A stretch of DNA of 64,000 bases from Poseidonibacter lekithochrous (GTDB taxonomy: Bacteria; Campylobacterota; Campylobacteria; Campylobacterales; Arcobacteraceae): positions 62,001 to 126,000 of the forward strand of contig NZ_CP054052.1 of NCBI RefSeq assembly GCF_013283835.1, written 5' to 3'. Each line of letters begins with the position of its first letter. Positions within the stretch are counted from its first letter, which is position 1. Positions 44,374 through 62,482 of the stretch are shown here, one piece after another. The position numbers and the translations under genes are program-made. Below the pieces are notes generated by a model. The model worked only from the letters and a program-made list of their open reading frames with translations. It had not been told where the DNA came from and searched no databases.

Positions 44374-46803
44374 TTAAAAACTTTCCCATTCATCATCTGA
44401 ACTGTTATTTGTTTCAATCACTTTTTTATTTGCTGTTGGAGTTATTGCTGTTTTATTTGGTCTTGGAGCTACTTTCCGATCTACTTTAGGAGCAGAAACA
44501 GGTGTAGCTACAGCTTGTTCTTTCTCTTTAGCTTTTATCTTACCTTTTCCTTCAAAAGTATTCTTATCAACATTTTCAACAACTTCTAATGCAATAGTAT
44601 TTGTTTCTTGTGCAATAGAATTAGTTTTATCAGCAATTGCTGCATTTTGTTGTGTAAACTGATCTAATTGCCCAACTGCATCAGCAATTTGAGTCATACC
44701 AGTTGTTTGCTCTTTAGCAGCTAGAGTTACATCCTCAATTAAACTACTTGTTGCTAGAATTTTTTCTTCTAATTGATTAAATCCATCAATCATTTTTGCA
44801 CTGATTTGTTTACCATCATTTGCTTTTACTGTTGCACTTTCAACTAAGTCTTTAATCTCTTTAGCAGCTTCAGCTGATCTTGAGGCTAAGTTTCTCACTT
44901 CTTGAGCAACAACTGCGAATCCTTTCCCTGCTTCACCTGCTGTTGCTGCTTCTACTGCTGCATTAAGTGAAAGAATATTAGTTTGGAATGCAATTTGATC
45001 AATAACTGAAATAGATTCATTAATATTAATAACAGTGTCATTAATATCATCCATAGCTTTTACTGTCTGAGTAGCTAATGTTTGACCCTCATTTGCAGAA
45101 TTCTTTGTATCATCAGAGATATTAGACATCTCTTGTGCTTTTTGACTTGTTTGTTGAATATTACTTGTAATTTCATCAATAGACGCTGCTGTTTCTTCAA
45201 GAGATGAAGCTTGTGAAGTAGCATTATTACTTAAGATTTTTACATTTGTCGTTAAATCATTTGAGCTATCTTGTAATAAAACCCCATCTCTTTCATTGTC
45301 TTGTAACATGTGAGTAATCATTCTATTCATTTGAATAATCTCATTACCAATTTTTCCACATGATTGAGTGTCTAATTTGGCTGTGAAGTCCCGTTGTGTA
45401 TATTTTGTTAGGGTATCACTAATTGTATTTAAATCTTTCCCTACTAGCTCTTCAAGCTTATTTAACATACCATTTAATAAATCTTTTAATTCATTTAATG
45501 ATTCAGTTGAAGTAGATCTAGAAATTCTTTTATCTAAGTACCCTTGAGAAACAGTATTAACAATAGTTTTTACATCTTCAATAAGTAGATTATCTTGATT
45601 AATACCATTTTGTATTTTGGAAATATTTTCATTAATTCCTTTTGCCATGGTTCCAAATTCATCATTTGAATTTACTTTGATATCATTTGTTGTTGTAGTT
45701 TCTTTGTTTAAATATTTGAAGAAACCTTCTAGTCCAAATGAAATTGATTTTAAATTCTTGTTTAACTTTCTAACTGAGTAGATAATTACTCCTGCAATTA
45801 CTAATAAACCTAGAATCCCTGCAATAACAGAGAAGTTACGTACGAAGTTTGCATGATATAAATATTCATCAATAGGAACTGAGATTACAAAACTCCAGTT
45901 AATATCATCTTTACCAATTTTAAATGATTTTGAATAATAATATGACTCTACATTTGAAGCTGGTGATACATTTGAGAAAATGTGGTCTTTACCTTGTTTT
46001 GTATTATTAACAAGTTTTACATAATTTGGATGATTTTTAGTAATTTCTAAAACATCTTTACCTAAATATGCTTTTTTGTGGTGACCTAAAATCATACCAA
46101 AGTGATCAACAATAAATGTATATCCTGATTCATAAACTTTAATAGAATTTGCCATTTTTGAGAAAGTATCTAAACTAATATCAATACCAATTGAACCTAT
46201 GAATTTATTGTTATGATACATAGGAACAGCAACTGTTGACATAAGAGTTTGAACTCCATCTACTGGGTAAAGGTATGGTTTAGTAATGTACATTTTCTTA
46301 CTTTCCATTGGTCCTTGAACCCATTCAAGTGTTTCTCCATAAGCACTACCTGGATTAATTACAATTCCACCACCAGCTTTTGCTATATAGGGATTAAATT
46401 GTCCAGTCTTATCGTAAGCACCTGTGCCTTTTTTATCATTATTTGCTTTGAAAAAAAGTTCTTTCTCTTTAATTTTAAACCAAATACCAATAATAAAATC
46501 ATTCTTATTTAAAATTGATTTTGCGTAGTTAATTACTTCGTCTTCATTTAAAGCATATCCTGATTGCAGAGCAGCTTCATATTTTGATGCTAAAGATTCA
46601 GATATTGATACAGATTGATTCACTTCCCCTTGAATCTGACCTGCATATTTACCTGCAAGTTGTTCCATATAATTCTTTGCATCAGTTTCTGCCGTATCGT
46701 AGGAATACTTTGTAACAAAAAACATTGTTATTCCAAAAATCAGGATAGTAACCCCTAAAACTTGAAATAAAAGTTTGTTTCCAAAGCTAGATTTATTATT
46801 CAT
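44374..46803 (-). CDS. Methyl-accepting chemotaxis protein with dCache sensor and C-terminal EWESF
   Basis: The start is ATG 46803, because AAAGGG 6 nt upstream is its ribosome site; the ATG at 46818 overlaps that site. The 809-residue receptor has a first helix (residues 9-30), a large periplasmic double-Cache domain, a second helix near 325-345, HAMP-like segments, and a signalling domain with the conserved tip ([21 protein letters not shown] over residues 610-630 in outline). It ends in DDEWESF, resembling the NWETF pentapeptide that tethers CheR and CheB in other bacteria. The ligand is unknown. Confidence 0.92.
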
Positions 46804-46898
46804 AATGTACCCTTTCATTATTTATTACTAAATTCTAACATAAAAAATATTTTATATATACATGAAAATGACTATAAATTTCTAGTTTTGCGACATTA

Positions 46899-46931
46899 CT
46901 CCACATAAACTGCATACTAAAAACATATACT
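46899..46931 (+). promoter_or_regulatory. Direct-repeat operator/promoter, site 1 (upstream of the copper-type regulator)
   Basis: CTCCACA (46899-46905) and CTGCATA (46910-46916) repeat at 11 bp, and TATACT (46926-46931) follows after exactly 9 nt. The same layout occurs at 48991-49023 and 54861-54893. A direct repeat at one helical turn overlapping the -35 region is typical of OmpR-family activators. Transcription would start about 46938, giving a long leader before the regulator or a separate small RNA. Confidence 0.65.
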
Positions 46932-46961
46932 TAAAAAATTAGGGTGATTACTGAGAGAAGA

Positions 46962-47045
46962 AATATCGAAGCAAAGGTATTCTGTTTAGTTCGCGCTAAA
47001 AGAAAATAAAGATTTCGAAATTCTAGTTTAAATAGCTTCGATATT
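46962..47045 (+). ncRNA. Candidate structured RNA element between site 1 and the regulator gene
   Basis: AATATCGAAGC (46962-46972) pairs perfectly with GCTTCGATATT (47035-47045), 11 bp. Inside, TTTAG (46985) and CTAAA (46996) form a hairpin with loop TTCGCG. The element begins about 24 nt after the predicted transcription start of site 1. It may be a leader fold or a small RNA; it could also be DNA-level symmetry. Confidence 0.4.
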
Positions 47046-47167
47046 CCATAGGTGTTATTTAAATAACTTAAGATAATTATAGTACTTTTATATGCAGTAA
47101 GTGTGTAGTTAAAAGATAAATATTATTAATTAGAAAAGAGTATTTCTAAATGAAACAACATTTATGC

Positions 47168-47173
47168 TAGAAT
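47168..47173 (+). promoter_or_regulatory. Second, proximal promoter of the regulator gene
   Basis: TATGCTAGAAT is an extended -10 (TAGAAT at 47168-47173) 19 nt before the regulator ATG. It would give a very short leader, so the regulator could have a constitutive proximal promoter and an autoregulated distal one. Confidence 0.5.
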
Positions 47174-47192
47174 TATTTATATAAGGACAAAT

Positions 47193-47852
47193 ATGAAGAT
47201 TTTATTGATGGAAGATGATTTATTATTAAATGAGATAATAGAAGAACATCTTCAAAGTAAAGGATATGATGTCGTATCAGCTTACAGCGGAGATGAAGCT
47301 CAAGATATTGTTTATTCACAAACTTTTGATTTATTATTACTTGATGTAAATGTTCCTAATATAAACGGTTTTGATTTATTAGAAGATTTAAGAGACAAAG
47401 ATATTAAAACAGCTGCTATTTTTATTACATCTGCAAATATGATGGATGATATAGAGAAGGGTTTTAAGTCTGGGTGTGATGACTATATAAAAAAACCTTT
47501 TGAGCTAAAAGAGTTAGATTTACGAATTGAAAATATCAAACGTCTTTATAATATCTCTCCTTCAAGTCATATTCAAATAGCAGATAATATTCTTTTGGAT
47601 AAGGATAATCTTTTAATAAATAAAAATAATGAAAGAATACATATTGCTCAAAAAGAGTGTGATGTTCTAGCATATTTAATAAAAAATAAAAACAAACCAG
47701 TAAGTATTGATGAACTAAGTCTAAATATTTGGGCTTATGAAGAAGCTCCCATTGCTTCAACAATTAGAACATATATAAAAAATCTTCGTAAAATTATAGG
47801 AGATGAGTATATTCTTAATATTAGAGGAGTAGGTTATCGATTTAACAGTTAG
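47193..47852 (+). CDS. OmpR-family response regulator of the copper-type locus (CusR-like)
   Basis: The 219-residue regulator has a receiver domain (LLMEDDLLLNE, Asp51 in LLLLDVNVPNINGF, YIKKPFELKEL) and a winged-helix DNA-binding domain ending LNIRGVGYRFNS. The kinase frame overlaps its end. Its position immediately before a CusCBA-type efflux operon, and the three matching direct repeats in this locus, suggest that it controls metal efflux and the bufferin operon. That assignment is inference from context; the protein itself only shows the OmpR class. Confidence 0.9.
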   Translation: MKILLMEDDLLLNEIIEEHLQSKGYDVVSAYSGDEAQDIVYSQTFDLLLLDVNVPNINGFDLLEDLRDKDIKTAAIFITSANMMDDIEKGFKSGCDDYIKKPFELKELDLRIENIKRLYNISPSSHIQIADNILLDKDNLLINKNNERIHIAQKECDVLAYLIKNKNKPVSIDELSLNIWAYEEAPIASTIRTYIKNLRKIIGDEYILNIRGVGYRFNS

Positions 47853-48981
47853 TGAAAAAAGAACCTTCTTTCGTTTTTTATTTTTATATTTAGGCTCTGC
47901 CTTAATTTTTCTATTATTAATAGCTTTTTTTTATTTTGAAAATGAAAAAAGATTATATTTTGATTTAGTTAAATCAAATATGCAAAATACTGTCTCAAAA
48001 ATTTCTTCACGAATTATTTTTGCTCATATGACAAATAGAGAGTTTGATCCCTCAAATTTATCAAAATTAGATTCTTATGAGATTGCTTTTTATGATGATA
48101 ATAAAAAGAAAATATTTGGAAACCTAGAAGATAAAATAGATTTTTCAAAAGAGCTAAGATTAAAAGATGAACATTATATATTAATAGATGACGCAGTTTT
48201 AGGTCATTTAGGTGTATATTTTATAGTAATAAAAGAAAACTTATTCTCTAAAAAAATAAGTGAATTACAAATACAAACTCTAATGTTCTTTTTATTTATT
48301 TATTCACTTATTTCTATAATTGGATTTTATTTAGCTCGTTTATTTATTAAACCTATTAAAGAAGAGCGTGAAAAACTCAACAACTTTATTCGTGATACAA
48401 CCCATGAATTAAATACTCCAATTAGTGCTATTTTAATGTCAACAGAGAATAAAGAATTAAGTGCTAAACAGGTTGAGAGAGTAAGACTAAGTGCAAAACG
48501 AATATCTGAGATGTACAAAGATCTTATTTATATTTTCTTAGAGGATAAAGAAAAAAAAGAGATTAATATCTATAATTTAAAAACTTTAATTCATGAACAA
48601 TTAGAGTACTTTGAACCCTTAGCTTCAAAAAAGAGAATAAAAATAGATTTAGATATTGAAGATTTTAATTATAAAATAAATAGAGATGATTTTATTAGAA
48701 TTGTGAATAACTTAATTTCAAATGCTATTAAATATAATAAAATGGGTGGAGAAATATCAATTGTATTAAAAAATAAAAATTTAACAATAAAAGATACTGG
48801 TATTGGGATTCCAGAAGAAAAAATAAAAGACATTTACAAAAGATATTATCGAGCTACTAGTGAGCAAGGTGGTTTTGGAATAGGTCTAAATATTGTAAAT
48901 CATATATGTAAAAAATATAATATTAATATAGAAGTAAACTCACAAATATCAAAGGGCACTAGCTTTATTTTAAGCTTCTAA
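47836..48981 (+). CDS. Sensor histidine kinase of the copper-type locus, non-standard start
   Basis: The first standard start is ATG 47980, but the open frame upstream encodes the whole first membrane helix (EKRTFFRFLFLYLGSALIF). ATC 47836 follows AGAGGAG at 6 nt and gives 381 residues. Alternatively GTG 47852, overlapping the regulator stop, would be in frame if the A6 tract at 47855-47860 had one more A. The protein has two transmembrane helices around a short sensor domain of about 90 residues, then His190 in DTTHELNTPISAIL and an ATPase domain (NNLISNAIKYN, DTGIGIP, GFGIGLNIV). It probably senses a periplasmic metal signal; that is inferred. Confidence 0.85.
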   Translation: MDLTVSEKRTFFRFLFLYLGSALIFLLLIAFFYFENEKRLYFDLVKSNMQNTVSKISSRIIFAHMTNREFDPSNLSKLDSYEIAFYDDNKKKIFGNLEDKIDFSKELRLKDEHYILIDDAVLGHLGVYFIVIKENLFSKKISELQIQTLMFFLFIYSLISIIGFYLARLFIKPIKEEREKLNNFIRDTTHELNTPISAILMSTENKELSAKQVERVRLSAKRISEMYKDLIYIFLEDKEKKEINIYNLKTLIHEQLEYFEPLASKKRIKIDLDIEDFNYKINRDDFIRIVNNLISNAIKYNKMGGEISIVLKNKNLTIKDTGIGIPEEKIKDIYKRYYRATSEQGGFGIGLNIVNHICKKYNINIEVNSQISKGTSFILSF

Positions 48982-48990
48982 GCCCTAACT

Positions 48991-49023
48991 CTGCACACTA
49001 ACTCCACATAGAATAGCTAGAAT
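48991..49023 (+). promoter_or_regulatory. Direct-repeat operator/promoter, site 2 (upstream of the efflux operon)
   Basis: CTGCACA (48991-48997) and CTCCACA (49002-49008) repeat at 11 bp, with TAGAAT (49018-49023) exactly 9 nt downstream. The site begins 10 nt after the kinase stop codon and gives a leader of about 25 nt before the first efflux-operon gene. Architecture equals sites 1 and 3. Confidence 0.7.
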
Positions 49024-49055
49024 TCATTTATAAAATTTCAATAGGAGTAATATAA

Positions 49056-49439
49056 ATGAAAAGTTTATTCAAAATAGTAATTGCAATGTTTTTAGCAATT
49101 GGTTTTCTAAATGCTGAACCTTTATCTCAAATGGGTGAAAAGAATGGTTATGAAGTGAAATTAACTTCAGAAAAATCACTAATTGTTGGTGATAATGACT
49201 TTTTTGTTCAATTAAGTAAAGATGGTAATGTAATTACAAATGCAAAGATGAAAATAAAAGTATTCATGCCAGAGATGCCAGGAATGCCTTATATGGAATA
49301 TAAAACAAAAGCAAAACTTGTTGATGGAAAATACAAAATGATGGTAAATTTCTCAATGGGTGGAACATGGCAATATCAATTAAAATTTAAATCTAAAGAT
49401 GGAAAGATCCATACAGTTAGAGGAAGTGTGAATATCTAA
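49056..49439 (+). CDS. Periplasmic YtkA/FixH-like protein, Met-rich
   Basis: The 127-residue protein has a signal peptide (IVIAMFLAIGFLNAEP) and one beta-rich domain of the YtkA-like type, with a methionine cluster (FMPEMPGMPYMEYK) and a second MMVNFSMGGTW segment. Methionine clusters in periplasmic proteins often bind Cu(I). As the first gene of a CusCBA-type operon it could take the place of the CusF metallochaperone, though it does not look like CusF. Its stop codon overlaps the next start. Confidence 0.8.
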   Translation: MKSLFKIVIAMFLAIGFLNAEPLSQMGEKNGYEVKLTSEKSLIVGDNDFFVQLSKDGNVITNAKMKIKVFMPEMPGMPYMEYKTKAKLVDGKYKMMVNFSMGGTWQYQLKFKSKDGKIHTVRGSVNI

Positions 49440-50632
49440 TGAAAAAGATAGCTTGCCTCTTATCTCTTCTTGTTTCATCAAGTTTTGCTATAAGTCTTGA
49501 TGAAATGGTAGATAATGCTTTCCAAAACAATCAAAATTTATTAAGTATAGAAAAAGCAATATCAATAGCAGATGAAAATATCAAACTTTCAACAAAATGG
49601 AAGAATCCAACTTTAACACTTGGAGTTAATGATATTCATTTTGATGAGCCTACAAAAAGAGATTTAGAGCCAATGCAAGCTCAATATATTGGTTTTTCAC
49701 AAGTAATTCCAGTAGGTAATAAACTTGATATAAAAAAATCAATAGCTAAAAAAGATAGAAATATTATTTCTTATTCCCTAGAGGATAAGAAGTTAATCTT
49801 AGAATCAAAAATATATGAACTTTCATATAATATTTTGATTCTTGAACAAAGATTAATCTTATTACACAAATTTGAGAAAAATATCAAAAAAATTGAAAAG
49901 TTATCAAATGCTTTATATTCACATGGTAAGTCAAATCAAAATGAGATTTTAAATGCAAAAATAGCTTATTCAAATATTCAAATTCAAAAACAAAATTTAA
50001 AAAATAGTATTGATAATCTATATATAAAATTAGAACAAATTACATATGAAAAAGTTGATAAAATCGATGCTTCTTTAGATGTGAAAGAACTAGTTTTATC
50101 TATGGATATACAAAATCATCCAAAAATAAAAATGCAAAAAATTAATACTAATAAATATGAAGACCTTTCAAATTTAGAGTTGGAAAATGAAAGAGGGGAT
50201 ATTAAATTAAATCTAGCATATTTTAATAGAGATGATAAATATAAGGATTATGCAAATATTTCTGTGAATATTCCTCTATCTTTATATAAAACAGAAAAAA
50301 TCAAAGCTGTAAAAGCAAAAATCAAAGCAAAAGAGATTGCTAATAAACTTGAAGATATAAAACAAAACTTCAAAACAGAACTTAGAATTCTTCAAAACAA
50401 TATAAATAATGCATATTATAAATATGAATTAATCCAAAATAGTATTATTCCTCTAAAAAGAAAAATGCAAAGAAATATCGAAAACTACAACAGTTTTCAA
50501 GGAATAAAACCTCAAATGGCAATAAGAAATCTAAATGAATTAATCACTTATGAACTTAAAAGTTATGATCATTTAAAAGAATATTTTTCAAACTACTCAA
50601 AATCAAAATATTATATGGCAAAGGCTAAGTAA
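49439..50632 (+). CDS. TolC-family outer-membrane efflux channel (CusC-like)
   Basis: The 397-residue protein has a signal peptide (KKIACLLSLLVSSSFA) and the two long helical repeats of outer membrane efflux proteins (SLDEMVDNAFQNNQNLLSIE, then a second repeat after residue 200). It is expected to form the exit duct of the RND system. It lacks an obvious lipobox. It is translationally coupled on both sides by one-base overlaps. Confidence 0.88.
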   Translation: MKKIACLLSLLVSSSFAISLDEMVDNAFQNNQNLLSIEKAISIADENIKLSTKWKNPTLTLGVNDIHFDEPTKRDLEPMQAQYIGFSQVIPVGNKLDIKKSIAKKDRNIISYSLEDKKLILESKIYELSYNILILEQRLILLHKFEKNIKKIEKLSNALYSHGKSNQNEILNAKIAYSNIQIQKQNLKNSIDNLYIKLEQITYEKVDKIDASLDVKELVLSMDIQNHPKIKMQKINTNKYEDLSNLELENERGDIKLNLAYFNRDDKYKDYANISVNIPLSLYKTEKIKAVKAKIKAKEIANKLEDIKQNFKTELRILQNNINNAYYKYELIQNSIIPLKRKMQRNIENYNSFQGIKPQMAIRNLNELITYELKSYDHLKEYFSNYSKSKYYMAKAK

Positions 50633-51651
50633 TGAATATAAGAAAATATATAAAAACCACTCTTTTTTCACTTTTGGTATTAACAAGTGTTGATGCAAAG
50701 ATAATTGAAGTTGAACAACTATTTAATAAAAAAACAGTATTAGTAAAAGAAGAAAATGTAGGTATTACAAAAAGTTTTTATGGGAAAACTAGAATTGATG
50801 AATCAAATACTGTAGATATTACTACAAGATTTGATGGTTTTATTACTAAACTAAATGCTAATAAAAATTTAATGTATGTGAAAAAAAATGAAACTTTATT
50901 CTCTATATATAGTGATGAGATTCTAAGTATTCAAAAAGAGATTCAGATTTCAAAAAGTATAAATAAAAATTTATATAGAAGCTCAGTAGAGAAGTTAAAA
51001 GTACTTGATATAAGTAAAAGTGAGATTAATAAAATCAAAAGAGCAAAAACTTCAATGGATGGAATTAAAGTATTTTCTCCTATGAATGCCATAGTTTTAA
51101 AAAAGAATATCAATGATAAAAGTGCTGTAAAAAAAGGGAAACTACTTCTACAGCTTACCAATATTGATAAGTTATGGTTTGTAGCTCAAATCTATCAAAA
51201 AGACTTAACTTTTATAAAAAAAGATATGAAAGCTTATGTTTATATTGATGGATTAAGTCAAGCAGTAAAAACAAAAGTTGATTTTATTTATCCAATGGTG
51301 AATGAAAAAACAAAAACAATTGATGTTAGATTTATTATTGATAACAAAGATTTAAATATCTATCCAAATATGTTTGCTAGTGTGAAAATCAAAGCTGTAA
51401 ATAAAACAATGCTTACTTTACCTAAAACTGCTGTCTTAACAAAAGGAAGTAATTTTTATGTATTTAAACCTATTTCCGACAGAGAATTTGAACCTATAAA
51501 AATTGAAGCAAAAAGAATTTCTACAAATAGATATGAAATCTTAGATGGTTTAAATAAAGGTGATAAGGTTATAAATAATGCTTTATTCTTACTTGATTCA
51601 GATGCAGTTACAAATGCACTGTATGAATCAGATACAGATGATGATTGGTAG
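50632..51651 (+). CDS. RND periplasmic adaptor (CusB-like)
   Basis: The 339-residue membrane-fusion protein has a signal peptide, a split biotinyl-lipoyl-like domain (RFDGFITKLNANKNLMYVKK and later KVFSPMNAIVLKKNI), a helical hairpin between them, and a beta-barrel region (NIYPNMFASVKIK). It bridges the inner-membrane pump and the outer channel. It has Met residues but no clear Cus-type N-terminal Met triad. It overlaps the channel gene by one base and precedes the pump gene by 9 nt. Confidence 0.88.
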   Translation: MNIRKYIKTTLFSLLVLTSVDAKIIEVEQLFNKKTVLVKEENVGITKSFYGKTRIDESNTVDITTRFDGFITKLNANKNLMYVKKNETLFSIYSDEILSIQKEIQISKSINKNLYRSSVEKLKVLDISKSEINKIKRAKTSMDGIKVFSPMNAIVLKKNINDKSAVKKGKLLLQLTNIDKLWFVAQIYQKDLTFIKKDMKAYVYIDGLSQAVKTKVDFIYPMVNEKTKTIDVRFIIDNKDLNIYPNMFASVKIKAVNKTMLTLPKTAVLTKGSNFYVFKPISDREFEPIKIEAKRISTNRYEILDGLNKGDKVINNALFLLDSDAVTNALYESDTDDDW

Positions 51652-51660
51652 GAAAAGATT

Positions 51661-54600
51661 ATGGTTGAAAGTGTAATATCATATAGTATAAGAAATAAAT
51701 TTTTAATACTTTTTTCAGTAATAATTTTAAGTTTTGCATCTATTTGGGCTGTTAAAAACACAGCCTTAGATGCCTTACCTGATTTATCTCCTCCTCAAGT
51801 TATTGTGCAAGTAAAGTGGGCAGGACAGAGTCCTAAAACTATTGAAGAGCAAGTATCATATCCTTTAATCTCAAATTTAATGTCTTTACCTAATATTGAC
51901 ACAGTAAGAGCTATGAGTTCTTTTCAGAATGCTTTGATTTATATTATCTTTAAAGATGGAACTGATCTTTATGATTCAAGAAATAGAATCTTAGAGCAAT
52001 TATCTCAACTTCAAGGAACATTTCCCCAAGGTGTAGATGTGGCAATTGGTCCAGATGCAACAGGTGTTGGATGGGCTTATGAGTATGCTTTAAAATCAGA
52101 TACAAAGTCTTTAGATGAGTTAAGAACACTTCAAGATTATTATTATAAATATGCCCTTTTAGGAGTTGATGGAGTAAGTGAAATTGCTTCTATTGGCGGA
52201 TTTATTAAGAATTATGAAATCACTTTAAACCAAGATAAGTTAGTGCAATATGATTTAAGTATTAATGATGTGAAAAGCGCCTTATCAAAAAATAATGATG
52301 AAAAAGGTGGACGAATAATCTTAGAGAATGGTTTTGAGCATATGATTCAAGCCAAAGGTTATTTACAAAGTGTTGTTGATATTGAAAATATTACTATAAA
52401 AACTATGAATTCAATTCCTTTAAAAATTAAAGATATTGCAGATGTTAATATTACCTCTTCAAATAGACGTGGTATGGCTGATTTAAACGGGCAGGGTGAT
52501 ACTGTTGGTGGTATTGTAGTTGTTCGATATGGGGAAAATCCTTATGCTGTTATAAAAGCAGTAAAACAAAAATTAGAAACCCTAAATGTTGATGGAGTTG
52601 AAGTAATTGAGACTTATGATAGGTCTTCACTTATTGATAAAGCAATTGATACTTTGAAAAATACTTTAATTGAAGAGTCAATTATTGTAATGATTATTAC
52701 AGCACTGTTTTTATTCCATGCAAGGTCTGCGTTAATTATAATCATTACTTTGCCAATTACAGTACTTATTACTTTTTTATTAATGAAAGCTTTTGGAATG
52801 GGCTCAAATATTATGAGTCTTGGAGGAATTGCCATTGCTATTGGGGCAATGGTAGATGCAACTATTGTAATGGTTGAAAATGCCCATAAGTACCTGCAAG
52901 GAAAAGAAAATATCTCCAATGAAGAGCGAATAGAAATTATAATCAAATCTGCAAAACAAGTTGGTCGTCCAATATTCTTTGCATTGATTTTAGTTGTAGT
53001 TTCTTTTTTACCAATTTTTGCATTAACTGGACAAGAAGGTAGATTATTTACTCCTTTAGCTTTTACTAAATCTTTTGCAATGATTTCAGGAGCAATTTTA
53101 TCAATTACAGTTGTTCCTATTTTAATGGTATTTTTTATAAGAGGAAAAATTCTAAGTGAAAATAAAAACTGGTTAAATAAGTTTTTTATTTTACTTTATT
53201 CTCCACTTTTAAAACTCTCACTAAAATTGAGATATTTTGTTGTTTTAGCTTTTATAGGAACTATAATAGCGGCATACCCAGTGTACAAAAAACAAAATTG
53301 GGAATTTATGCCAATGATGAATGAAACTGTATTTATGTATATGCCTGTAACTCCTTATGGATTAGGAGTTGATTTAGCAAAAGAGTTAACATATAAAACA
53401 GATAAGATTCTAAAATCCTTTCCAGAAGTACAAACAGTATTTGGAAAAGCAGGGCGAGCAGATACAGCAACAGATCCAGCTCCACTTGCTATGATTGAAA
53501 CAATTGTTACTTTTAAGCCTGAAGATCAATGGCGTGAGGGAATGACATATAAGAAACTAATGGCAGAAATGGATAAAAAACTGCAAGTAGCAGGGCTTAT
53601 TAACTCTTGGACTTACCCAATTAGAGGTAGAATTGATATGCTTCTAACAGGTATACGAACACCTTTAGGAATAAAACTATATGGAAATAATCATCAGAAG
53701 CTTGAAGAGACAGCAGGTTTAATAGAGCAAGAACTTAAAAAGTTTGATAAAACACTTTCTGTATCAACAGATAAAATCAACTCTGGGTATTATTTAAATA
53801 TTGATATAGATGAAGAGATGATTTCAAGATATGGTATTTCTAAGAATGATATTTTATCTACTGTATCACTTGGGGTTGCAGGAGCTAAAGTATCTACATT
53901 TTTAGATGGTTTAGAGCGATATCCTATGACTTTGAGGTTTGAGACAAGCCAAAGGGAAGATATTACAAGTTTACGTAATTTACAAGTTAAAACAAAATTA
54001 GGTTTCCAGCCTTTAGAAATGTTTGCACAACTAAAGTATGAAGAAGGTCCTTCTGTTATAAAGTCTGAAAAAGCCTTAAATGTAAACTTTATATATATAA
54101 CACCAAAAAGCGGTGTTTCTGCAAAGCAGTATAAAGACGAAGCTAAAGCTTTATTAAAAGATATAAAATTACCTAGTGGTTTTTATTATGAGTGGGCAGG
54201 GCAGAGTGAGTATTTAGAATCAGCAATGGAGCGATTATTATATATAATTCCTCTAACTTTTGTGATTATATTTATTCTTATTTATTTTGCACTAAAAAAT
54301 ATTACATATACAATGATAATTTTCTTTACCTTACCATTTGCATTAACTGGTGGAATATTCTATTTAGATTTCCTAAACTTTAATATCTCAATTGCTGTAA
54401 TTGTTGGTTTCCTAGCTCTGCTTGGAGTTGCTGCTGAAACATCAATTGTGATGATTGTTTACTTACATGAAGCGATGTTAGAGTTAAAAGACAAATGTTT
54501 AAAAATAGAAAAAGAACATATTTACCATGCAATTTATAAAGGTGCAGTTTTAAGACTTCGACCAAAACTAATGACCCTATTTGCCATCTTAGGAGGGCTT

Positions 54601-54777
54601 ATTCCTATTATGTATATAGATGGGGTAGGTAGTGAGGTAATGCAAAGAATAGCAGCTCCTATGATCGGAGGAATGGTGTCTTCGGCATTTTTAACTTTGA
54701 TTGTAATCCCTTCAATTTTTTATATATTAGCTATAAAAAAAGGTGGAAAAATGGCAGATTGTGATTTAAGTCATTAA
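51661..54777 (+). CDS. cusA: Heavy-metal efflux RND pump, CusA type
   Basis: The 1038-residue pump has the RND architecture of twelve helices and two large periplasmic loops. Met561 (FMYMP), Met611 (PLAMIET) and Met660 (RIDMLLTG) occupy the relative positions of the three CusA methionines that bind Cu(I)/Ag(I) (spacings 50 and 49 residues, as in E. coli CusA). This favours monovalent copper or silver over zinc, cobalt or cadmium. The operon ends with a hairpin 12 nt downstream. Confidence 0.94.
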   Translation: MVESVISYSIRNKFLILFSVIILSFASIWAVKNTALDALPDLSPPQVIVQVKWAGQSPKTIEEQVSYPLISNLMSLPNIDTVRAMSSFQNALIYIIFKDGTDLYDSRNRILEQLSQLQGTFPQGVDVAIGPDATGVGWAYEYALKSDTKSLDELRTLQDYYYKYALLGVDGVSEIASIGGFIKNYEITLNQDKLVQYDLSINDVKSALSKNNDEKGGRIILENGFEHMIQAKGYLQSVVDIENITIKTMNSIPLKIKDIADVNITSSNRRGMADLNGQGDTVGGIVVVRYGENPYAVIKAVKQKLETLNVDGVEVIETYDRSSLIDKAIDTLKNTLIEESIIVMIITALFLFHARSALIIIITLPITVLITFLLMKAFGMGSNIMSLGGIAIAIGAMVDATIVMVENAHKYLQGKENISNEERIEIIIKSAKQVGRPIFFALILVVVSFLPIFALTGQEGRLFTPLAFTKSFAMISGAILSITVVPILMVFFIRGKILSENKNWLNKFFILLYSPLLKLSLKLRYFVVLAFIGTIIAAYPVYKKQNWEFMPMMNETVFMYMPVTPYGLGVDLAKELTYKTDKILKSFPEVQTVFGKAGRADTATDPAPLAMIETIVTFKPEDQWREGMTYKKLMAEMDKKLQVAGLINSWTYPIRGRIDMLLTGIRTPLGIKLYGNNHQKLEETAGLIEQELKKFDKTLSVSTDKINSGYYLNIDIDEEMISRYGISKNDILSTVSLGVAGAKVSTFLDGLERYPMTLRFETSQREDITSLRNLQVKTKLGFQPLEMFAQLKYEEGPSVIKSEKALNVNFIYITPKSGVSAKQYKDEAKALLKDIKLPSGFYYEWAGQSEYLESAMERLLYIIPLTFVIIFILIYFALKNITYTMIIFFTLPFALTGGIFYLDFLNFNISIAVIVGFLALLGVAAETSIVMIVYLHEAMLELKDKCLKIEKEHIYHAIYKGAVLRLRPKLMTLFAILGGLIPIMYIDGVGSEVMQRIAAPMIGGMVSSAFLTLIVIPSIFYILAIKKGGKMADCDLSH

Positions 54778-54788
54778 ATATAGAATAC

Positions 54789-54820
54789 AAAAGAATAATA
54801 TTTATATAAATTATTCTTTT
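54789..54820 (+). terminator. Terminator after the CusA-type gene
   Basis: AAAAGAATAAT (54789-54799) and ATTATTCTTTT (54810-54820) form a perfect 11-bp stem with an AT-only loop that could fold further. It separates the efflux operon from the bufferin operon, which therefore needs its own promoter. Confidence 0.75.
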
Positions 54821-54860
54821 ATATATAAAATTTAAAAATTATTTAGTTAAAATGAATAAT

Positions 54861-54893
54861 CTAAACATTAACTACACAAAAATTCTATAAAAT
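54861..54893 (+). promoter_or_regulatory. Direct-repeat operator/promoter, site 3 (upstream of the bufferin operon)
   Basis: CTAAACA (54861-54867) and CTACACA (54872-54878) repeat at 11 bp, with TAAAAT (54888-54893) exactly 9 nt downstream. Spacing equals sites 1 and 2. Transcription would start near 54900, about 235 nt before the bufferin start codon. This links the RiPP operon to the efflux regulator. Confidence 0.65.
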
Positions 54894-54899
54894 TCTCCT

Positions 54900-55134
54900 A
54901 GAACATTTAGCAAGAGCGAATGTTAAAAGTGAATTTATCGTTTGGTTTATTTCTTAATCAAACATGATAAGTGAAGTTTTATTAGATAGAAATTTTATCA
55001 TCCAGTATACTTTGTGGATGTTTACAATGAGTCTTGTAAATACCGATTTTGTTGGCACTATTTGCTAAACCAACTTTGCGCTAAACTAAATAAAATGCAG
55101 CGTTAATAATTTAAAAAAATATTAAGGATACAAA
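54900..55134 (+). promoter_or_regulatory. Structured 5' leader of the bufferin operon
   Basis: This 235-nt noncoding stretch holds five consecutive hairpins. They are AACATT/AATGTT (54902-54924), TTATCGTTTG/CAAAC-GATAA with a 2-nt bulge (54935-54970), CATCCA/TGGATG (54999-55020), TTTACAA/TTGTAAA (55021-55040, abutting the previous one), and GTTGG/CCAAC (55051-55074). TTTAGCAA (54906) can also pair with TTGCTAAA (55062) in the loop of the last hairpin, closing the whole fold. GCTAAAC occurs twice (55064, 55080). It may be a regulatory leader or a separate small RNA. No plausible protein gene lies in it. Confidence 0.5.
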
Positions 55135-55497
55135 ATGAGTACTAAAATGAAATTAGCAGGAATTATGTTAGGAGCGGCACTAACTACAACAGCTGCATTT
55201 GCAGGAAACGGATCTTGTGGAGCTGGTAAATGTGGTGGAGATATGAAAAAATCTGAAAAGATGGACAAAAAAGGTTCTTGTGGTGCTGGTAAATGTGGTG
55301 GCGACATGAAGAAAAAAGAAATGAAAAGTGGATCTTGTGGAGCTGGTAAATGTGGTGGCGACATGAAGAAAGATGCTAAAAAAGAAATGAAAAGTGGATC
55401 TTGTGGAGCTGGTAAATGTGGTGGCGACATGAAAAAAGATGCTAAAAAAGAAATGAAAAGCGGTTCTTGTGGCGCTGGTAAATGTGGTAGCAAATAA
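55135..55497 (+). CDS. Bufferin-like RiPP precursor with five CGAGKCG repeats
   Basis: The 120-residue protein has a Sec signal peptide (KLAGIMLGAALTTTAAFAG) followed by five copies of GSCGAGKCG separated by Lys/Met/Asp-rich linkers (GDMKK, DAKKEMKS). It has ten cysteines in all. Copper-binding bufferins and HvfA-type peptides carry EGKCG-type motifs whose cysteines are modified by DUF692/MNIO enzymes; here the motif is AGKCG with an additional upstream Cys. The next two genes encode exactly such a modifying enzyme and its partner. It is probably exported and sequesters copper in the periplasm. The antisense open frame here is a repeat artefact. Confidence 0.88.
   Translation: MSTKMKLAGIMLGAALTTTAAFAGNGSCGAGKCGGDMKKSEKMDKKGSCGAGKCGGDMKKKEMKSGSCGAGKCGGDMKKDAKKEMKSGSCGAGKCGGDMKKDAKKEMKSGSCGAGKCGSK
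55210..55488 (+). repeat. Tandem repeats inside the bufferin-like gene
   Basis: Five units encode GSCGAGKCG. The last spacings are 22 codons (66 bp) with nearly identical DNA, the earlier ones are 21 and 17 codons. The near-identity of the later units points to recent tandem duplication, so copy number may vary between strains. Confidence 0.9.
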
Positions 55498-55523: not shown

Positions 55524-56345
55524 ATGATAAATTTAAAAGGCTGTGGATTAGGATTAAGAAGTGATTTTCTTCTTGACCTAAAAGAAAATGAATTTCAACC
55601 TGACTGGTGGGAAGTAACTCCTGAAAATTGGATGCATATGCCCAAGTTATATGAAAAAGCTTTTGAAGAAGCTGTGTTCTCTAAACCTACAGTTGCACAT
55701 GGTTTATCTTTATCTATTGGCTCTGTTGACAAACTTAATAGAAAGTTTGTCAAACAGGTTAAAACTTTCCTTGATAGATACAATATAGAATTTTATTCTG
55801 AACACCTAAGTTTTTCTTCCCTAGATAATAAACAATCTTATGAGTTATTACCTGTACCTATGACTAAAAAAATGGTAAATGTAATAGCAGATAGAGTAAA
55901 AGAGGTTGAGGATATAATTCAAAGAAATCTGATTTTAGAAAATGCAACATATTATTTAGTTCCTTACTCAGAAATGAGAGAAGTTGACTTTATTAATGAA
56001 GTTATGGAAAAATCAGGTGCTAAAATGCTATTAGATGTTAACAATGTATTTGTTAACTCTGTAAATCACTCTTTTAAAGCTAGAAAATTCATTGATGAAA
56101 TTGATAAAAGCAAAGTAGCTTATATGCATATGGCTGGTCATTATTTCGATGAGGAAGCTAATATGAAAATTGATTCACACGGAATGCCTATTGATAAAGG
56201 TGTGTGGAAACTTTTAGAATATACTTTAAAACAAGTTGATGCTCCTGTAATGATTGAAAGAGACAATAATATCCCTCCATTAGAAGAGTTAGTTAGTGAA
56301 TACAAACAGATGAAAAAGATTTGTAAGGCAGTTAGAAATGGCTAA
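55524..56345 (+). CDS. DUF692 multinuclear iron oxidative enzyme (MNIO, BufB/HvfB-like)
   Basis: The 273-residue TIM-barrel protein has the DUF692 signatures: GCGLGLRSDF, Glu93-His94 in SEHLSF, LENATYYL, LLDVNNVFVNSVNH, His202 and His206 in YMHMAGHYF, His219 in KIDSHGMP, and MIERDNNIP. These His, Asp and Glu residues bind the two or three irons in the family. Such enzymes convert cysteines of a precursor peptide to heterocycles. It lies 26 nt after the precursor gene and overlaps the partner gene by 8 nt. Confidence 0.93.
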   Translation: MINLKGCGLGLRSDFLLDLKENEFQPDWWEVTPENWMHMPKLYEKAFEEAVFSKPTVAHGLSLSIGSVDKLNRKFVKQVKTFLDRYNIEFYSEHLSFSSLDNKQSYELLPVPMTKKMVNVIADRVKEVEDIIQRNLILENATYYLVPYSEMREVDFINEVMEKSGAKMLLDVNNVFVNSVNHSFKARKFIDEIDKSKVAYMHMAGHYFDEEANMKIDSHGMPIDKGVWKLLEYTLKQVDAPVMIERDNNIPPLEELVSEYKQMKKICKAVRNG

Positions 56346-57033
56346 TTTAGAAAGAGATGTAGAAGATAGATTCTTCGATATTATCACAAATCAAAAAGAT
56401 AATCCAAGCTCAAATGCTTATGGAGTTTATCAAAAATTAGTTTTTTATAGATATGAAGAGATTATCAAAAATACTTTCCCTGAATTTATGAAATATATTT
56501 CAGAGAATGACTTAGAAAAATCTGTATATGAATTTATGAAAACTCCTCCTTCAACTCCTTTTGTTTGGCAAATTGCAAATGATTATAGAAAATTTGTAAA
56601 GAAAAATAAAATATTTCATGATAAAAAGTTTTTATATGAACTTTTATATTTTGACTGGATTGAAGTTGAAGTAGAAATGAAAGAGTATAAAGAAGAAAAG
56701 AAATCTAAATTTTCATGGGATAATTCATATAAACTAGCGCCAAGTGCTAGAGTTAAAAAATTTAAATATGACATTATAAATAAAGACTATGAAACAAATA
56801 GAGAAAACTATCTAATAATATATTTTGATTTCGAACAAAATGAAGTTTTATTTAGAGAGATAAATCAATTTATTTATGTTCTTATTAAAAGAGCAAATAA
56901 GAAAGAGAGCTTAGAAAAAACTCTAAAGACTTTATGTAAAGAAAATGATCTTGAATTACAAGAGGCAAAAGCTGTTTTAGAAGAGGCCTTAAAAGAGTTG
57001 ATTTCTCAAGACGCTCTGCTAAAATCTAAATAG
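56338..57033 (+). CDS. DUF2063-type partner of the MNIO enzyme (BufC/HvfC-like)
   Basis: The 231-residue protein has an N-terminal helical domain like DUF2063 (GVYQKLVFYRYEEIIKNTFPEF; STPFVWQIANDYRKFV, at roughly residues 29-85) and a C-terminal winged-helix-like region (INQFIYVLIKRANKK). In known systems this protein delivers the precursor to the DUF692 enzyme. It overlaps the enzyme gene by 8 nt and converges with the MATE gene with an 8-nt overlap, so the operon has no room for a further gene. Confidence 0.85.
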   Translation: MANLERDVEDRFFDIITNQKDNPSSNAYGVYQKLVFYRYEEIIKNTFPEFMKYISENDLEKSVYEFMKTPPSTPFVWQIANDYRKFVKKNKIFHDKKFLYELLYFDWIEVEVEMKEYKEEKKSKFSWDNSYKLAPSARVKKFKYDIINKDYETNRENYLIIYFDFEQNEVLFREINQFIYVLIKRANKKESLEKTLKTLCKENDLELQEAKAVLEEALKELISQDALLKSK

Positions 57034-61792: not shown

Positions 61793-62482
61793 TTATCTTT
61801 TAAGATTGTAGATTAAAATCCCTGCTGCTACTGAAACATTTAATGAATCAAATTCATGTTCCATTCCAATAGATACTTTTAAGTCTAATTTTTTAGCAAC
61901 TTTTGGAGAGATACCATCTCCTTCGCTTCCTAAGAATAAAGCTACTTTATCAGTCTTTTCAATTTTCCCATATTTTTTAAGGTCAATTCCATCAGTAGTT
62001 GCACCAATTAATGTAAATCCAGAGTCGATTAATTCGCTCGCTAAATCTACTGATCTTGGGTGAACTGTAAATGGTAAGTCTAATAATGCTCCTGAACTTG
62101 TTCTTACAATTCCAGAGTTATTAATAGTTTTGATATTTGAAGCAATTACACCTTCTATTCCCATAGAGTAAGCTGTTCTTGCAATTGCACCAATATTTCC
62201 AACATCAGTTAATCCATCTAAAACTAAGATGAAGTTCATATTTTTGAAGTTTTTAATTGGAGCATAGTCAAATTGTTCTAATTTTAAAAAGAAACCTTGA
62301 TGATTTCCGCCTTTTGCTAGTGCTTGAGCTTTTTGATTATCCACTTTGTGAATTTTTTTGTCAAGTCTTGCAAATTGTGTAAAAAGTTTTTTATCAATTT
62401 CTTTTGAAAGAAAAACTTCTTCTATTAGTTCTGGGTGTTTTTCTAGTACGTAAAGTACGATTTGTTTTCCATATATTATCAT
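61793..62482 (-). CDS. rlmB: SpoU-family 23S rRNA 2'-O-methyltransferase
   Basis: The 229-residue protein has an N-terminal L30e-like substrate-binding domain (IIYGKQIVLYVLEKHPELIEE, residues 2-22 in outline) and a SpoU knot domain with motif 1 NIGAIARTAYSMG, motif 2 LFLGSEGDGIS and motif 3 IGMEHEFDSLNVSVAAGIL. It should methylate a ribose in 23S rRNA (Gm2251 if RlmB). TrmH-like specificity cannot be ruled out. Confidence 0.9.
   Translation of the reverse strand: MIIYGKQIVLYVLEKHPELIEEVFLSKEIDKKLFTQFARLDKKIHKVDNQKAQALAKGGNHQGFFLKLEQFDYAPIKNFKNMNFILVLDGLTDVGNIGAIARTAYSMGIEGVIASNIKTINNSGIVRTSSGALLDLPFTVHPRSVDLASELIDSGFTLIGATTDGIDLKKYGKIEKTDKVALFLGSEGDGISPKVAKKLDLKVSIGMEHEFDSLNVSVAAGILIYNLKR

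Follow-up and report, generated by a model that had tools for sequence, protein, structure and literature searches.

We analyzed a 64-kb window (64,000 nucleotides; positions 62,001 to 126,000 of contig NZ_CP054052.1) from Poseidonibacter lekithochrous, in which a two-component system, a heavy-metal efflux operon and an operon for a ribosomally synthesized and post-translationally modified peptide (RiPP) adjoin each other and are associated with tandem-repeat promoters. The regulator gene (47193..47852, + strand) encodes an OmpR/PhoB-family response regulator, putatively of CrdR type, with Response_reg and Trans_reg_C domains, and its cognate sensor histidine kinase of predicted CrdS type (47833..48981, +) contains HisKA and HATPase_c domains, as expected for a CrdRS pair. 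Upstream of ATG 47980, the translation still shows the conserved kinase frame, including the first transmembrane segment, but there is no ATG, GTG or TTG; the TTG start of relatives is a TAG here and in genome G005, so that the usual start codon is missing (genomes are coded Gnnn, with G000 for the window's own genome, and fetched loci Lnnn). The efflux operon has the gene order crdA-crdB-czcB-czcA and consists of a CrdA-like periplasmic protein with a YtkA domain (49056..49439, +), an outer-membrane efflux protein of the CrdB/CusC type with an OEP domain (49439..50632, +), a membrane-fusion protein of the CusB/CzcB type with a HlyD domain (50632..51651, +) and a heavy-metal resistance-nodulation-division (RND) pump of the CusA/CzcA family (51661..54777, +), which scores 1016 bits and thus above the cut-off against TIGR00914. 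The RiPP operon encodes an HvfA-type precursor with repeated CGAGKCG motifs (55135..55497, +), a multinuclear non-heme iron-dependent oxidative enzyme (MNIO) as the HvfB/BufB-like maturase, with an MbnB_TglH_ChrH domain (55524..56345, +), and an HvfC-like partner with DUF2063 and NGO1945_C domain matches (56338..57033, +).

Four sites at this locus share a strict layout of heptamer, 4 bp, heptamer, 9 bp and −10 hexamer, in which two 7-bp direct repeats separated by a 4-bp spacer replace the −35 element. Site 1 (46899..46931, +; CTCCACA-TAAA-CTGCATA-N9-TATACT) is aimed at the regulator gene, site 2 (48991..49023, +; CTGCACA-CTAA-CTCCACA-N9-TAGAAT) lies directly ahead of the efflux operon, and site 3 (54861..54893, +; CTAAACA-TTAA-CTACACA-N9-TAAAAT) ahead of the RiPP operon. 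The letters, coordinates and 7-4-7-9-6 layout of these three sites were all as given in the original prediction, made from the sequence alone, according to which one OmpR-family regulator activates all three promoters, including its own. A fourth perfect site (47076..47108, −; CTACACA-CTTA-CTGCATA-N9-TATAAT) had been overlooked; it points leftward, converges with site 1 and precedes a structured RNA (46950..47069, −; at its widest to 47075, with estimated ends).

The pattern CTnnAYA-N4-CTnCAYA-N9-TAnnnT, which includes site 1 among its exact matches, occurs four times in the 3,568,672 bp of the genome, each time within 8 kb of the locus, and its reversed control does not occur at all. This genome-wide scan had been proposed as a check, and its outcome excludes occurrence at chance frequency. 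When one mismatch was allowed, the 64-kb window contained five matches, compared to 0.18 expected from shuffles of the window. With two mismatches, 53 matches were found in the genome versus 28 for the reversed control, an excess of only about twofold, so that the loose matches are mostly noise; all genome-wide counts derive from pattern scans. The latter ratio would speak for matches that are due to chance in an AT-rich genome or to a general vegetative promoter motif. This explanation is nevertheless exceedingly improbable, since the exact matches are restricted to the locus, the box is absent from the remaining genes of the loci studied and the orthologous promoters are strongly conserved; for sites 2 and 3, we reject it on the basis of the conservation at crdA and the boxless neighboring genes described next.

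In ten genomes of the genus, the pattern was matched 27 times and the control never. The genes behind it were the hvf/buf operon in nine of the ten genomes, crdA in six and a gene for a secreted thioredoxin-like protein in five. We then divided 104 genomes of the family into 78 with a match to the regulator (E-values up to 1e-60) and 26 without. The former contained 95 exact matches versus 23 for the reversed control, and the latter eight versus six. In a sample that was blind to the motif, with loci taken by the position of the regulator, 22 of 25 crdA-like genes, each the first of a pump operon, were preceded by a tandem box at a distance of 36-48 bp from the ATG, many of them with the −10 element one base further away and hence invisible to the exact pattern. 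A weight matrix trained without the window's genome, and applied to a set of loci of which a part had been fetched by the motif, identified the box at 38 of 44 crdA-like genes, at all 11 hvf operons headed by a YceI-domain gene and directly at 11 of 34 precursor genes, but, within these loci, in none of about 315 upstream regions of other genes. The spacing from the second repeat to the −10 element in crdA promoters of relatives was 9 bp in 30 cases and 10 bp in 15, so the spacer of exactly 9 nt that had been noted holds at this locus but not in general. Some of the box clusters in relatives contain three heptamers, of which the last is in register with the −10 element. In other genera, the gene directly behind the box at the head of the hvf operon encodes a YceI-domain protein (L123, L132, L133, L163-L166), which is absent from the hvf operon in this genus, and boxes also occur ahead of genes for DUF411 proteins and DsbA-like thioredoxins (L067, L072, L092, L101, L108, L113-L115).

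A related box is located ahead of crdA in other families of the Campylobacterales, such that the 18-bp box at this gene is kept across the order. In Helicobacter-type genomes it reads TTCCACA-ATTT-TTACACA-N9-TATCAT, with the repeats TTCCACA/TTACACA rather than CTnCACA as here. A one-way search with the regulator against these genomes gave a best match of 40-47% identity, followed by the next at 28-34%, and in G287 the best match is close to crdA. CrdR of H. pylori is reported to bind 21 nt at the crdA promoter (PMC9927306), and phosphorylated CrdR to promote transcription of crdAB and czcAB (PMC9696931). The related box at crdA throughout the order, together with the reported binding of CrdR there in H. 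pylori, suggests an activator of CrdR type that uses a direct repeat of the pho-box-like 7-4-7 kind. The pho box consists of two 7-nt direct repeats that are 4 nt apart (PMC4415409), and the same 7-4-7 geometry applies to PhoP of M. tuberculosis (PMC4832192). The sites described here resemble the PhoB/PhoP box in that the −35 element is replaced by two 7-bp direct repeats with a 4-bp spacer and an 11-bp period, but differ in that the heptamer is CTnCACA rather than CTGTCAT and in that the targets are metal-efflux rather than phosphate genes. As in the CrdRS and crdAB-czcBA systems of H. pylori, an OmpR-family regulator and a sensor kinase occur with an efflux operon in which a small CrdA-like protein comes first, and there is a tandem repeat at crdA. 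However, the regulator genes HP1364/HP1365 lie apart from the pump genes HP1326-HP1329 in H. pylori, whereas the corresponding genes adjoin each other here, where the RiPP operon and the RNA also share the box with the pump. The CusRS and HprRS systems of E. coli are likewise metal- or oxidant-responsive systems of the OmpR family, which control the Cus pump or MsrPQ, but their operators are inverted repeats and not direct repeats.

Taken together, the idea of a regulon that contains the pump and the RiPP operon is strongly supported by the enrichment of the box in genomes with the regulator, by its placement at crdA and hvf and by the kinship with CrdR. General autoregulation, as originally proposed, was not supported. 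We consider it highly likely that the neighboring CrdR-type regulator drives the pump, the HvfA-type RiPP operon and the RNA through the tandem heptamers; for the crdA-crdB-czcB-czcA-type operon, such control is suggested by the box ahead of it. In the proposed mechanism, the sensor kinase, which presumably detects periplasmic copper, would phosphorylate the regulator, a tandem dimer of which would bind the two head-to-tail heptamers (CTnCACA, 11-bp period) that replace the −35 element and would recruit RNA polymerase to the −10 element 9-10 bp downstream. The efflux operon of the CrdA-CrdB-CzcB-CzcA type, the HvfA-type RiPP operon and the structured small RNA behind site 4 would then be induced jointly, weaker sites elsewhere would induce genes for periplasmic thioredoxin and methionine-sulfoxide reductases, and site 1 could, in this lineage, contribute to the expression of the regulator gene. 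Since the box is common to these promoters and a related one is found at crdA throughout the order, it is very probable that a single ancient copper-sensing switch governs the pump, the RiPP operon and the RNA. If so, the box represents a testable operator for CrdR-type regulators, apparently kept through the Campylobacterales including Helicobacter-type genomes, and would place a metal-binding RiPP of the HvfA type and a Cus/Czc-type pump under common control.

Several points weigh against this interpretation. The binding and phosphorylation of the regulator, the copper signal and the transcription starts are inferred, both the regulator and the kinase score below the NCBIfam cut-offs for heavy-metal families, the orthology with CrdR derives from one-way best hits, and the 21-nt CrdR site of H. 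pylori was likened to the box by its description and not letter by letter. Furthermore, sites 1 and 4 score only 15.4 and 15.0, compared to 21.1 and 23.2 for sites 2 and 3, and have the heptamer CTGCATA in common, for which reason they may respond to a different regulator. The genome also contains at least one paralogue, 49% identical (for example G000:C1:2218113-2218763), that could bind the same repeat, and we therefore considered the alternative that the boxes belong to such a paralogous OmpR-family regulator while the neighboring one does something else. Several OmpR-family genes are present in the genome, relatives have tandem response regulator-histidine kinase pairs at 52-61% identity, and other genomes have the heptamer CTACATG instead of CTnCACA ahead of the RNA element. 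On the other hand, the sites cluster around this regulator, track its presence across the family and mark crdA, a known target of CrdR, to which this regulator is the closest relative, and the alternative thus seems quite unlikely.

The RiPP operon had been described as a bufferin operon. There is indeed a RiPP operon behind site 3, but it is better classed with the HvfA/oxazolin (Buf_EGKCG) type than with the Buf1/Buf2 bufferins, judging from its domains (both types are described in PMC12452194). The precursor scores 39.6 bits against NF050137, with a cut-off of 19.5, and carries the KCGExKCG type of repeat, while it gave no Pfam match at all and lacks the DUF2282 or Buf_6/12Cys domains of Buf1/Buf2 precursors. 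Similar to HvfABC in Haemophilus and to the Buf_EGKCG-oxazolin clusters, the operon combines a signal-peptide precursor with repeated (A/E)GKCG motifs, an MNIO maturase and a DUF2063 partner. It differs from these in its CGAGKCG repeats, in the CrdR-type box upstream and in the scores of the maturase (319 versus 360) and the partner (87 versus 142), which are below the cut-offs of the HvfB and HvfC equivalog models although the domains are present.

The precursor gene is preceded by a 240-nt leader (54894..55134, +) that is found only in this genome and in G005; searches elsewhere returned only AT-rich noise. The segments that differ between the two genomes pair as a stem with several compensated changes and a hairpin loop, with the arms TTATCGTTTG/CAAAC-AT-GATAA in one and TTATTATTCA/TGAAT-TT-AATAA in the other, which suggests a structured RNA, two sequences being too few for a firm claim. 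The folding z-scores of single leaders (−1.3, −1.6 and 0.1) are uninformative alone. A leader sequence common to the regulator and RiPP operons was also considered and rejected, as the similarity was not significant.

Sites with one mismatch were identified in the window's genome ahead of the thioredoxin orthologue (score 19.0), a secreted MsrA (17.4) and MsrP (13.4), through which the regulon may reach these genes. One further such site is inside a gene and presumably due to chance, and another is about 550 bp from a gene for a small secreted protein, the homologue of which in G002 also has a site (loci L040, L039, L041 and L043). The boxes ahead of MsrP, MsrA, thioredoxin and DsbA-like genes, as well as the reported link between CrdRS and nitrosative stress in H. 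pylori (PMC9696931), would also be compatible with a signal other than copper, such as another envelope stress (reactive chlorine or nitrogen species) or another soft metal. We regard this as a less probable, though real, option, considering that the targets with the best conservation, a heavy-metal pump and a metal-binding RiPP operon, both deal with metals.

The arrangement of site 1 is peculiar to this species and to G005, a close relative in which the site is kept. It was said to stand before the regulator, which is correct for the orientation, but the site is distant: it lies about 290 bp upstream of the gene, with the end of its −10 element 262 bp from the ATG. As a general feature, autoregulation was not borne out; of 95 regulator genes from the family, the weight matrix placed a box within 150 bp of just two, and most of the genus has none. 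In our assessment, the case for genuine autoregulation of the regulator-kinase pair through site 1 is evenly balanced. Its orientation, layout and retention in G005 argue for such a function, while its distance, the rarity of boxes near regulator genes and a closer −10-like element (TATGCTAGAAT) adjoining the gene argue against it, and the transcript would be antisense to the conserved RNA. Autoregulation is weakly supported. Other Poseidonibacter-type genomes have a second locus (L034, L197, L200, L201) that consists of a regulator gene, the RNA element, genes for a SHOCT membrane protein and for DUF411 or cytochrome c, and a second regulator gene, directly ahead of which a second 7-4-7-9-like box is found.

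The stretch of about 145 bp between the convergent sites 1 and 4 is almost invariant between this genome and G005. The RNA behind site 4, the unexpected part of the locus and potentially a new RNA in the copper circuit, folds into a 5' hairpin, a long closing stem (GGAAUAUCGAAGC/GCUUCGAUAUUUC) and an inner hairpin (UUUAG-CGCGAA-CUAAA). Sequences that match its core occur in G003 and G006, where changes in the stem are compensated, and a covariance model search identified nine copies in eight genomes from two genera, Poseidonibacter and one other genus of the Arcobacteraceae, with a single copy in the window's genome. In the alignment, five pairs are changed on both sides, and 92% of the cells pair, as compared to 29-41% with slid partners, counts that lean towards the structure to which the alignment was fitted. 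U-G wobbles on the site-4 strand indicate that this strand gives the polarity of the RNA. The copies outside the main locus of G000 and G005 have a regulator gene upstream and are preceded by a promoter of the heptamer-N4-heptamer-N9-TATAAT-like type, which is degenerate only in G004. In several further genomes of Poseidonibacter, the RNA is followed by an operon that encodes a SHOCT protein, either DUF411 or cytochrome c, and another regulator. No element was detected outside the family among 399 genomes of the order, and Rfam 15 gave no match at the gathering score in the window and only two sub-threshold matches elsewhere in three loci with the element. We also rejected the idea that sites 1 and 4 enclose a 210-bp palindrome or a mobile element, since self-alignment was within the shuffled range except for the stem and the two promoters and the element is single-copy in this genome.

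The element is most simply a small RNA or a long structured leader, and it could have a role in tuning the copper response. With moderate confidence, we favor the view that site 4 drives a member of an undescribed family of small RNAs of about 120 nt, each next to a CrdR-type regulator gene and nearly all with tandem heptamers in the promoter. The RNA would act as a metal-regulated riboregulator, which in this genome is antisense to the site-1 leader of the regulator. The next gene in the direction of the RNA encodes a dCache chemoreceptor (44374..46818, −) about 258 bp downstream of the −10 element of site 4, and has a −10-like element of its own. In H. pylori, copper reportedly acts as a repellent (PMC9696931). 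The chemoreceptor gene is inserted between an RNA recognition motif (RRM) gene and the regulator, a position that it occupies only in G000, G005 and G045 among the genomes checked.

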